64,000 nt of DNA from Leeuwenhoekiella nanhaiensis (GTDB lineage: Bacteria > Bacteroidota > Bacteroidia > Flavobacteriales > Flavobacteriaceae), in the NCBI RefSeq assembly GCF_002744755.1, contig NZ_KZ319291.1, forward strand, positions 1 through 64,000, given 5' to 3'. Below are positions 50,199 through 53,534 of this stretch, piece by piece (positions within the stretch are counted from its first letter, which is position 1; each line of letters begins with the position of its first letter). A model generated the notes under the pieces. It was not told where the DNA came from. It searched no databases and saw only the letters and a program-made list of their open reading frames with translations. The position numbers and the translations under genes are program-made.

Positions 50199-51014
50199 TT
50201 ACCCTGCAACCACCTTACGTATCGCTACCAGTTTGGTAAGTAAACCTTCCAGTAAGCTTAGGTCAAGCATATTAGCTCCGTCGCTTTTGGCATTTGCGGG
50301 GTCGAAATGGGTCTCGATAAACAAGCCGTCAACACCCGCCGCGATGCCGGCCTTTGCCATAGTGCCTATAAGTTCAGGTCGGCCGCCGGTTACCCCGCTG
50401 CTTTGATTGGGCTGTTGTAAGGAATGCGTGACATCAAGTACCGTTGGCGCGTATTGCTTCATGGTGGGGATGCCTCTAAAATCTACGATAAGATCCTGAT
50501 AGCCAAACATCGTTCCGCGATCGGTGATCCAGACGTTTTCGTTGCCGGTGTCGGTCACTTTAGTAACGGCGTGTTTCATCGCCTCCGGACTCATAAACTG
50601 CCCTTTTTTGAGGTTCACGACTTTACTGGTTTCGGCAGCAGCGACAACCAGATCGGTTTGACGTACCAGAAAAGCCGGAATTTGCAATACATCTACATAT
50701 TCGGCAGCCATTGCCGCGTCTTCGTTCACGTGAATGTCAGTCACCGTTGGGACTTTAAAAGTCTCTGAAACCTTACGTAGAATCTTTAGCGCTTTTTCAT
50801 CACCAATACCCGTAAAACTATCGAAGCGGCTGCGGTTAGCCTTTTTAAAACTTCCCTTAAACACGTAGGGAATACCCAATTTATCAGTTATACCTACCAC
50901 TTTTTCGGCAATGCGCATCGCCATTTCCTCGCCTTCAATGGCACAGGGCCCGGCAAGCAGGAAAAAGTTATTGGTATCTGTATGTTTAATCTGGGGAATA
51001 TTGGAAAGTTTCAT
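50199..51014 (-). CDS. kdsA: 3-deoxy-8-phosphooctulonate synthase
   Basis: KdsA condenses phosphoenolpyruvate and D-arabinose 5-phosphate to KDO-8-phosphate in the cytoplasm, the first committed step to the KDO of lipopolysaccharide. The 271-residue TIM-barrel sequence shows GPCAIEGEE near the N-terminus, FKGSFKKANRSR, DIHVNEDAAMAAEYVDVLQIPAF, the TDRGTMFGY loop and the C-terminal GLFIETHFDP. The size is normal and all key segments are present. It has its own terminator. Confidence 0.97.
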   Translation of the reverse strand: MKLSNIPQIKHTDTNNFFLLAGPCAIEGEEMAMRIAEKVVGITDKLGIPYVFKGSFKKANRSRFDSFTGIGDEKALKILRKVSETFKVPTVTDIHVNEDAAMAAEYVDVLQIPAFLVRQTDLVVAAAETSKVVNLKKGQFMSPEAMKHAVTKVTDTGNENVWITDRGTMFGYQDLIVDFRGIPTMKQYAPTVLDVTHSLQQPNQSSGVTGGRPELIGTMAKAGIAAGVDGLFIETHFDPANAKSDGANMLDLSLLEGLLTKLVAIRKVVAG

Positions 51015-51310: not shown

Positions 51311-51332
51311 GGTTCGAGCGCAGTCGAGAACC
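51311..51332. repeat. REP-like element with GAGCGCAGTCGAG core
   Basis: GGTTC and GAACC arms flank GAGCGCAGTCGA. From memory, sequences with this core are common interspersed palindromes in Bacteroidota genomes, often linked to RAYT transposases. Only one copy was seen here. Confidence 0.55.
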
Positions 51333-51427
51333 TATTGTTGATGACAACTATCAGGTACAAACTACAAAGTGGGAATAAACAGAAACCGAAGTAAAATAAA
51401 TTCCAATTAACGAATAACTTTTAACCA

Positions 51428-51455
51428 ACAGAAAACAGAAAACAGAAAACAGAAA
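51428..51455. repeat. Heptanucleotide tandem repeat (ACAGAAA)4
   Basis: Four perfect copies followed by a degenerate one. It has the same 7-bp period as the AAATACG array at 41667-41729 and the pair at 51052-51065. Confidence 0.9.
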
Positions 51456-51488
51456 ACAAGAAACCCTTGAACTTTAAAACTATAACCT

Positions 51489-51607
51489 GCAACCGCTTGC
51501 GGTAGGGATAGCAGCGGCATCCTTTTTTGTTACTACAGACTTCCTGCGCCATTTGGCGCATTAGGTGAAGCTGCTAACAAAAAAGATAGAGCGTATAGCC
51601 CGGTTGC
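51489..51607 (+). ncRNA. Candidate structured RNA, rod-like fold
   Basis: Nested complementary arms show a folded transcript of ~119 nt. The outer stem is GCAACCG (51489-51495) with CGGTTGC (51601-51607), the middle stem is CTTTTTTGTTA with TAACAAAAAAG (11 bp, perfect), and the apical hairpin is TGCGCC-ATTT-GGCGCA flanked by CTTC/GAAG. Unpaired blocks GGATAGCAGCGG and GATAGAGCGTATAGCC sit opposite each other as an internal bulge. I recall similar blocks recurring between genes in Flavobacteriia, possibly the Flavo-1 motif, but cannot confirm this. Strand is inferred from that memory. Confidence 0.6.
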
Positions 51608-51707
51608 TGCTTGTGACTGATTTTCAATTTTTTACATGATTTTATACAAGCAGCAAGCCGCCCAAATTATAATTGAAATAAGTGCTTAAAAGTCCGTGAA
51701 TTAACCG

Positions 51708-51715
51708 TATCTTTG
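51708..51715 (+). promoter_or_regulatory. -7 element of typA (TATCTTTG)
   Basis: An exact TAnnTTTG match 22 bp before the typA ATG, followed by GCGCCC. It lies downstream of the structured element, so the main typA transcript would not include it. The -33 TTG is not obvious. Confidence 0.55.
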
Positions 51716-51737: not shown

Positions 51738-53534
51738 ATGAATATTAAAAACATTGCGATTATCGCGCACGTTGACCACGGTAAAACCACCCTGGTAGAC
51801 AAGATTATGTACCACTGCCAGTTGTTTCGTGAAAACGAAAACACCGGTGATTTGATTCTGGATAACAACGATCTGGAGCGTGAACGCGGTATTACTATTA
51901 CTTCTAAGAACGTTTCGGTTATCTATAAAGACACCAAAATTAACATTATTGATACTCCGGGTCACGCCGATTTTGGTGGGGAGGTTGAGCGGGTACTCAA
52001 TATGGCTGACGGGGTGTTGTTGCTGGTTGATGCCTTTGAGGGGCCTATGCCACAAACGCGTTTCGTACTGCAAAAGGCAATTGACCTGGGTCTTAAACCG
52101 TGCGTGGTTATTAATAAAGTAGACAAAGAAAACTGTACTCCTGAAGAAGTTCACGAGAAGGTTTTTGACCTGATGTTTGAGTTGGGTGCCGAAGAATGGC
52201 AGCTAGATTTCCCTACGGTTTACGGTTCGGCTAAGAACAACTGGATGAGTGACCACTGGGAAAATGAGACCGAAAATATTGAGCCCCTTCTCGATATGGT
52301 GATGGATCATATTCCTTCTCCTAAAATTGAAGAAGGTAGCACACAAATGCTGATTACTTCTCTCGATTTCTCTTCATTTACCGGTCGTATCGCTATTGGG
52401 CGTTTACAACGCGGTACTTTGAAGGAAGGAATGAACGTATCGCTGGTTAAGCGTGACGGAAGCATCAAAAAAGCAAAAATTAAAGAATTACACACCTTTG
52501 AAGGACTTGGGCGCAAGAAAGTAGCTGAAGTTCAGGCAGGTGATATTTGTGCTCTTGTAGGTATTGAAGGTTTTGAAATTGGGGACACTGTTGCCGATTT
52601 TGAGAATCCGGAAGGACTGAAGACCATCGCGATCGATGAGCCTACGATGAGTATGTTGTTTACGATTAACGATTCGCCATTCTTTGGTAAAGACGGAAAG
52701 TTTGTGACTTCACGTCACATCAAAGACCGTTTATTTAAAGAACTAGAGAAAAACCTGGCACTTCGCGTAGAAGAAACCAATAGTGCCGATAAGTTTATGG
52801 TATATGGCCGTGGGGTATTGCACCTTTCGGTATTGATCGAGACGATGCGTCGTGAAGGGTACGAACTGCAAATTGGTCAGCCGCAGGTAATCATCAAAGA
52901 AATTGACGGTGTTAAATGCGAACCTATTGAAGAATTGACTATTGACCTGCCGGAGGAAGTTTCAGGTAAGGCTGTAGAAATGGTGTCTATCCGTAAAGGG
53001 GAGATGTTGAGTATGGAAGCCAAGGGCGATCGTATGGTTTGCCAGTTTTTAATTCCTTCACGAGGGATTATCGGTCTTCGTAACCAGTTGCTTACTGCAA
53101 CTGCCGGTGAAGCGATTATGGCTCACCGTTTTAAAGAATATCAGCCGCTCAAGGGAGACATTCCGGGTCGTAACAACGGTTCGCTGGTTTCTATGGAAAA
53201 AGGTACCGCTATCCCATATTCTATTGATAAACTGCAGGATCGTGGTAAGTTCTTCGTTGATCCGGGTGAGGATATCTACGAAGGTCAGGTAATTGGTGAA
53301 AACAGCCGTCAGGATGATATGACCGTTAATATTACCAAGACTAAAAAATTATCAAACGTACGTTCTTCCGGAGCAGATGATAAGGCCAAAATTGTACCGG
53401 CCATTAAATTCTCTTTAGAAGAGGCTTTAGAATACATACAAAAAGATGAATATGTTGAGGTTACTCCAAACCATTTACGTCTGCGTAAGGTATTATTAAC
53501 CGAAAACGAACGTAAGCGTAACAAGTCGGTTTAA
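51738..53534 (+). CDS. typA: Ribosome-associated GTPase TypA/BipA
   Basis: A 598-residue translational GTPase. G1 [13 protein letters not shown]3 [12 protein letters not shown] and G4 NKVDKE are present, followed by the EF-G-like domains II, III and V and the BipA-specific C-terminal domain ([23 protein letters not shown]). It acts on the 70S ribosome in assembly and stress adaptation. The length is normal. It ends in a strong terminator that overlaps the stop codon of the converging toxin gene. Confidence 0.97.

Follow-up and report, generated by a model that had tools for sequence, protein, structure and literature searches.

Between the divergent genes kdsA and typA, the window (the 64,000-nucleotide stretch of Leeuwenhoekiella nanhaiensis DNA analysed here) carries a structured stretch. 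The first-pass annotation had named both neighbours from the letters alone, and NCBIfam matches above cut-off (TIGR01362 and TIGR01394) bear the names out. The three perfect stems it had drawn are all present, namely GCAACCG/CGGTTGC (7 bp, 51489-51495 with 51601-51607), CTTTTTTGTTA/TAACAAAAAAG (11 bp, 51522-51532 with 51575-51585) and TGCGCC/GGCGCA (6 bp, 51545-51550 with 51555-51560), and so are the purine-rich blocks that face each other. The stretch had been described as free of ORFs, which holds among ORFs of at least 40 aa except for a single overlapping minus-strand ORF of 46 aa (51421-51561). The fold of 51480-51615 beats chance (RNA z -2.35, with 3 of 200 shuffles equally good), and the guess that this might be Flavo-1 proved right: Rfam RF01705 matches 51497-51609 on the plus strand with 49.1 bits against a gathering score of 42, the sole Rfam match at gathering score across the 64-kb window.

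Two points of the earlier drawing need revision. The outermost stem of 7 bp exists but is not conserved, being found by eye in only two of five genomes, the window's own (G000) and G004; and 51489-51607 does hold the structured core, but the unit is longer than drawn and reaches 51663. The stretch 51499-51663 folds as a three-way junction (RNA z -4.18, DNA z -3.85; none of 200 shuffles is as stable), consisting of an outer stem P1, a long rod P2, whose core is conserved and whose tip varies, and a side hairpin P3. Its plus strand is the strand of the Rfam model, and its ends, 51499 and 51663, match insertion boundaries found in two other genomes. The features of the locus are as follows.

50199-51014, minus strand: kdsA (NCBIfam TIGR01362)
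51489-51495, plus strand: 5' strand of the earlier 7-bp stem, pairing with 51601-51607; in G000 and G004 only, of five genomes
51497-51609, plus strand: part matched by Rfam RF01705 (Flavo-1), 49.1 bits, gathering score 42
51499-51663, plus strand: whole element, three-way junction with a type B frame; fold z -4.18, conserved in five congeners
51499-51503, plus strand: 5' strand of the P1 outer stem, GCGGT, pairing with 51657-51661
51505-51521, plus strand: P2 base and conserved 5' core, GGGATAGCAGCGGCATC, from the Rfam alignment
51522-51584, plus strand: variable apical hairpin of P2; 18 of 60 columns invariant in five species
51585-51601, plus strand: conserved 3' core and P2 base, GATAGAGCGTATAGCCC, from the Rfam alignment; 16 of 18 columns invariant
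51604-51615, plus strand: 5' strand of the P3 accessory hairpin, pairing with 51645-51656
51616-51644, plus strand: long P3 loop, conserved in the orthologue group; 20 of 31 columns (51615-51645) invariant
51645-51656, plus strand: 3' strand of the P3 accessory hairpin, pairing with 51604-51615
51657-51661, plus strand: 3' strand of the P1 outer stem, GCCGC, followed by a CCA tail; pairing with 51499-51503
51708-51715, plus strand: TATCTTTG, likely -7 box of the typA promoter, downstream of the element; conserved in five species
51738-53534, plus strand: typA (NCBIfam TIGR01394)

The motif at 51708-51715 is one that we take to be a -7 box (consensus TAnnTTTG). Given its position downstream of the element, use of this promoter would place the element outside the typA leader.

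The paired structure is supported by how its sequence varies. When the copies at the typA locus of five species are aligned, 89.4% of cells pair, versus 39-50% when the alignment is slid, and some pairs of the apical hairpin are altered on both sides. In total six pairs show such two-sided changes, against a shuffle mean of 3.9 (43 of 500 shuffles reach six), and one slid version of the alignment likewise shows six; the covariation score of 0.133 exceeds the shuffle mean (0.098), and 2 of 500 shuffles attain it. By itself, this five-orthologue covariation is suggestive only. A larger set came from parsing 173 candidate copies, of which 26 were dropped for orientation ties or contig edges; four of the remaining 147 could be assigned to neither type, and P1 was not parsed in 8 of the 93 type-B copies. 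In 74 of 85 type-B copies, many of them mutually related copies from the congener G007, the inner three P1 pairs are all Watson-Crick, in six different sequences. Counted over the 15 distinct combinations, 31 of 45 pairs are Watson-Crick, whereas the shuffle mean is 19.0 and none of 5000 shuffles is as high; the count is limited to the inner three pairs because the parse fixes the outer G-C pairs. The check on homologues suggested in the first-pass annotation thus finds covariation over the 85 copies and a weaker signal with the five orthologues alone, so that the absence of covariation, one half of what was to speak against a structured element, is not what the homologues display.

The copy beside typA is one of many. 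The window's own genome has 12 Flavo-1 matches above cut-off, 19 at E<=1e-3 and 23 at E<=10 (18 copies in a shallower multi-genome search), and the family was found in 26 of 40 genomes, this one included, with 1-81 copies each. G007 has 82 copies at 44 sites, and the single-contig genomes G213, G424 and G309 hold 29, 33 and 20. Across the class the distribution is patchy, with matches in 135 of 396 genomes and 65 of 199 genera; as at most 11 candidates per genome were scored in that scan, its copy counts are floors. Twelve of the 44 sites in G007 are clusters of copies in the same orientation, with up to eight copies each (L083-L091, L266), and in the clusters examined the repetition mostly takes in the intergenic flanks as well as the element.

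Some individual copies stand in particular surroundings. Copies lie directly behind 5S rRNA genes (L007, L144, L145, L146), and three contigs of G004 begin within a 5S gene, about 173 bases ahead of a Flavo-1 copy. The copy at G007:C2:1943539-1943620 (L223) has its hairpin tip inverted relative to most other listed G007 copies, as is expected from flipping between the arms of a palindrome. In the window's genome a 658-aa gene (L348, G000:C3:363716-365998), which by eye lies between a 518-aa gene and a dnaE-like gene, is flanked by two copies in opposite orientation, both of which have counterparts in G004. At positions 1516-1722 of L393 the end of a 69-aa ORF is encoded by the element; possibly the end of a gene was replaced by an insertion.

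The ends and flanks of such copies bear on whether the element has moved. Named genomes scanned with a strict pattern yielded 72 stretches, 38 of them in the uncultured Aquimarina sp. 821-3Z, 19 in the Flavobacteriaceae MAG DT_37 and 15 in nine others, including Mesonia, Salegentibacter, Eudoraea, Aureivirga, Haloflavibacter and a Weeksellaceae strain. Counting complete copies with sufficient flank, Aquimarina 821-3Z has 32 of 84-102 bp with a mean identity of 0.94, and DT_37 has 18 of 82-84 bp with a mean identity of 0.92, values raised by the choice of copies through an exact core pattern. Related flanks are rare, with one pair on the left and one on the right in Aquimarina 821-3Z, and two on the left and none on the right in DT_37. 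The left edge is fixed, since 36 of 36 and 20 of 20 copies in the two genomes start with GCGTTA, a sequence outside the pattern used in the edge analysis, and the base preceding it is always T or C. The 20 positions before this edge hold at most 1.19 bits in Aquimarina 821-3Z, while some in DT_37 reach 1.53 bits (a T run and a G), so that a flank preference or a longer unit is possible in DT_37. The right flank is A/T-rich, with up to 1.05 and 1.69 bits per position in Aquimarina 821-3Z and DT_37, the edge itself being placed by its CGCC; given these flank signals, the left and right edges are not equally sharp. Among 34 and 18 copies no target duplication of 4-9 bp was found above chance, at least 40 of 200 shuffles reaching the observed count. 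In these two genomes the element thus occurs as multiple copies with a fixed left end in mostly unrelated flanks, as expected of a mobile palindromic repeat. At four sites compared in three relatives no clean empty site was seen; the counterpart held an element, a remnant or a different region, and one counterpart was not found. Carriage by phages or plasmids was also considered and set aside, the strict patterns hitting one and two viral stretches and no plasmid.

Taken together, we consider it probable, at roughly three chances in four, that the feature beside typA is a small non-autonomous mobile palindrome, in the form of an old copy that has become fixed. This reading is argued for by the defined left end, by similar copies in unrelated flanks without target duplication, by the covarying paired structure, by helices whose decay shows no family-wide strand preference, and by a mostly intergenic placement with few divergent sites. 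The unit measures 82-102 bp in the two many-copy genomes and 165 bp here, is bounded by fixed ends (5' Y|GCGNNAGGGAT ... NNCGCC(C) 3') and folds on one strand into the three-way junction of P1, P2 and P3. It may move in the form of folded DNA, with an enzyme supplied from elsewhere acting on it in trans. Tandem arrays would grow through recombination, and the tolerance of intergenic sites for copies, together with the usefulness of some, might explain why they persist. On this reading, the Rfam label of an sRNA would mark the folded core of a repeat and not a dedicated RNA gene. RF01705 describes the same sequence and core structure as the element in the window, but neither the P1 pairing nor P3 falls within its 76 model positions. 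Rfam classes the family as an sRNA gene; the copy number, the ends and the strand symmetry seen here point instead to a dispersed element.

What the mobile-palindrome reading has to accommodate is conservation. At the typA locus the element is present in five congeners (G000, G004, G001, G002 and G008), in all five of which P1 and P3 are kept by eye. From P1 through the 5' core 20 of 24 columns are invariant, as are 16 of 18 in the 3' core, 11 of 13 on the 5' side of P3 (51602-51614) and 20 of 31 in the P3 loop, against 17 of 146 in the upstream intergenic stretch on the kdsA side. One could therefore suppose that this copy, mobile by origin, now serves as an insulator, a terminator or a regulator site upstream of typA, a possibility of some weight that we nevertheless regard as unlikely for this locus. 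The fetched stretches near typA of eight other congeners (G011, G005, G009, G003, G010, G006, G007 and G012) gave no Flavo-1 match at E<=0.1, which argues that the element is not needed for typA generally; by eye, that of G006 holds a degenerate element-like stretch. Moreover, the stretch from the element to typA is itself conserved (62 of 72 columns), so that the conservation of P3 may in part reflect the upstream or promoter region of typA.

Other orthologous copies are conserved too. Fourteen of 20 copies in the window's genome have a counterpart in G004 with at least one common flank. Between these two genomes the core is identical at 330 of 339 positions (97.3%) and the apical part at 298 of 317 (94.0%), compared with 3557 of 3906 (91.1%) in ORFs and 1015 of 1314 (77.2%) in intergenic flanks around the same copies. 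These figures come from 9 of 13 compared pairs, four being unparsed (three of which give cores of 38/39, 38/39 and 20/21 under another parse), and since pairs had to be detected in both genomes the core identity is biased upward and that of the apical part less affected. Plain decay does not describe these Flavo-1 copies. Conservation above intergenic flanks is not expected of neutral relics, and to that extent it speaks against reading the copies as mobile relics; some copies, perhaps this one, may have been co-opted by the host.

The same conservation could mean that Flavo-1 is a true RNA, with copies transcribed as 5' or 3' UTR elements or as small RNAs and with the plus-strand fold bound by protein at this locus. 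Such a reading, which appears rather improbable to us, would account for the conserved purine-rich 3x3 loops, found on one strand only, and for the covariation. It fares less well with the wobble pairs, since selection for an RNA on one strand should let G.U pairs pass but not A.C mismatches, whereas family-wide the two occur about equally: 23 G.T and 20 A.C in 120 distinct apical hairpins (duplicates merged, 2 of 143 skipped), 4 and 4 in 51 of 56 distinct P3 stretches (by an imperfect parse that cut short the window's own P3), and 2 and 3 in P1 of the type-B copies. As a control, ten tRNAs from the fetched loci showed 10 G.T and no A.C among 120 pairs. At the window's own locus the balance is 8 G.T to 1 A.C in helices 1-4 and 7, as an RNA would predict, and in the four other species the complete structure gives 14 to 8, counts made on a fold that was chosen with G.U allowed.

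Orientation relative to genes bears on the same question. The 44 sites of G007 comprise 20 convergent and 3 divergent ones (p 4.9e-4 for 20:3) and 21 tandem ones, the latter mixed as 12 sense and 9 antisense; among 39 classed copies of Aquimarina 821-3Z and DT_37, 11 are convergent and 5 divergent, and the tandem ones are again mixed (13 sense, 10 antisense). ORFs called by a simple length-based script overlap the element at 4 of 44 sites in G007 (ORFs of 90-107 aa) and 3 of 43 in Aquimarina 821-3Z and DT_37. A replichore bias in G007 was not significant (10+/7- versus 8+/15-, Fisher p 0.20, with the origin taken from the GC skew of 20 stretches and one boundary site excluded). A role as terminator was considered: type B shows by eye GGAT..ATCC followed by a T run; because this is absent in type A, we did not adopt it, and a simple terminator scan gave one site with 0.5 expected. 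The window's copy, moreover, lies between divergent genes and upstream of the likely typA promoter, which does not favour an RNA. In the available text of a Flavobacterium psychrophilum transcriptome study (PMC9723704), several 5' transcribed regions coincide with Flavo-1 matches, in favour of an RNA, but the matches are described as indistinctly sense or antisense, and many lie in no transcribed region. With some 20 copies in the window's genome, 82 in a congener, both orientations and no family-wide wobble excess, a gene for a discrete sRNA of about 120 nt is not well supported.

If the element is a mobile palindrome, an enzyme has to be found for it. REP and BIME repeats are palindromic, mostly intergenic, multi-copy, arranged in arrays and associated with RAYT transposases. 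The element resembles them in being palindromic, dispersed, mostly intergenic, multi-copy, in arrays and without target duplication, and a REP-type repeat moved by a RAYT (Y1/HUH) transposase would also fit the Y1_Tnp matches over cut-off in five of five genomes tested from the pattern scan, Aquimarina 821-3Z and DT_37 included. It differs in being longer (82-165 bp), in its three-way junction and in that no fixed tetranucleotide was seen beside it in Aquimarina 821-3Z. In addition, Y1_Tnp does not track copy number across the 40 genomes, being over cut-off in only 4 of the 10 that hold at least 10 copies, and a whole element lies near only 1 of 46 Y1_Tnp loci, that one a gene fragment with stops, while single element motifs lie near eight further loci. 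We therefore consider a REP-type origin quite improbable, although the five-of-five result leaves room for a Y1 enzyme that acts in trans. Genes between neighbouring copies were likewise considered as movers and by eye resemble housekeeping or accessory genes; neither they nor the Y1 transposases yielded a mobilising enzyme. REP surveys (PMC12306157, PMC3733652) were consulted in excerpts.

Other known systems match in part. BOX and RUP are MITE-like modular repeats, and the element shares with them small non-autonomous units, fixed ends and a modular interior; unlike them, it has a terminal inverted repeat of only 5-6 bp, no target duplication such as marks a classical MITE, and no parent insertion sequence that we could find. 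Integron attC sites end in GTTRRRY/RYYYAAC boxes; we rejected this candidate as well, since by eye the boxes are absent and the ends read GCGTTAGGG...AACGCCC.

6S RNA is a single-copy RNA gene with a large open bubble. A 6S-like regulatory RNA, the other guess of the first-pass annotation, shares with the element nothing but the long rod and can hardly be upheld given the many copies, the two small 3x3 purine-rich loops of the Rfam Flavo-1 structure in place of one large central bubble, and the absence of any 6S family among the five Rfam matches at E<=10 for the stretch, 6S-Flavo (RF01685) included. In the excerpted sources, RF01685 is listed as Bacteroidetes (PMC2864571) and the 6S RNA of F. 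psychrophilum is counted apart from Flavo-1 (PMC9723704).

The frame of the element is not tied to Flavo-1. At two orthologous sites, where G000 and G002 carry Flavo-1, the sister species G004 and G001 have the same frame with another core, roughly GATTGA-N4-TTGTTG-RAGCTC-hairpin-AGCGAS-N4'-GAAAGCCC. This pattern occurs at 20 places in 8 of the 40 genomes, the window's own not among them, and the reversed pattern, run as a control, gave no match. GCNNNA precedes GGGATTGA at 16 of the 20 places, AAAGCCCG stands on the right at 18, and the N4 arms are complementary at most by eye. Twelve of the 20 loci were scanned with Rfam, and in these no family covered the second core above gathering score, one copy giving a sub-threshold Flavo-1 score of 31 bits. 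A tandem G.A motif, GGAGC/GCGAC, was also noted by eye in the second core (L324-L343, e.g. L334, L337, L339). We tentatively propose, at somewhat less than even odds, that Bacteroidota have a new class of mobile hairpins with at least two interchangeable cores, Flavo-1 being one of them, and with a shared three-way-junction frame and fixed ends; these hairpins would move, probably as folded single-stranded DNA, by means of a not-yet-known enzyme.

In the accessible part of its original description (Weinberg et al. 2010, PMC2864571), the table row for Flavo-1 reads RNA y, cis-regulatory n, switch n; its function is left blank in the portion of PMC9029176 available, and the literature searched, some of it in excerpts, gave none. 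In the main texts of the freely accessible papers searched, we did not see Flavo-1 treated as a mobile repeat. If true, the mobile-repeat reading would turn an RNA family of unassigned function since 2010, with matches in 135 of 396 genomes of the class, into the core of a mobile repeat and change the annotation of Flavo-1 matches. The lack of consistent orientation to transcripts, as reported in the available text of PMC9723704, would fit. The question would then no longer be what Flavo-1 RNA does, but which enzyme moves the element and which copies the host uses.

Upstream of the element the window holds two further sequence features. A palindromic motif, TTCGAGCGCAGTCGAGAA, lies at 51313-51330 and at the same place in G004 and G002; it recurs at one further fetched place each in G000 (L121) and G002 (L153/L165), and is perhaps another dispersed repeat. 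At 51427-51463 there are about five tandem copies of AACAGAA.
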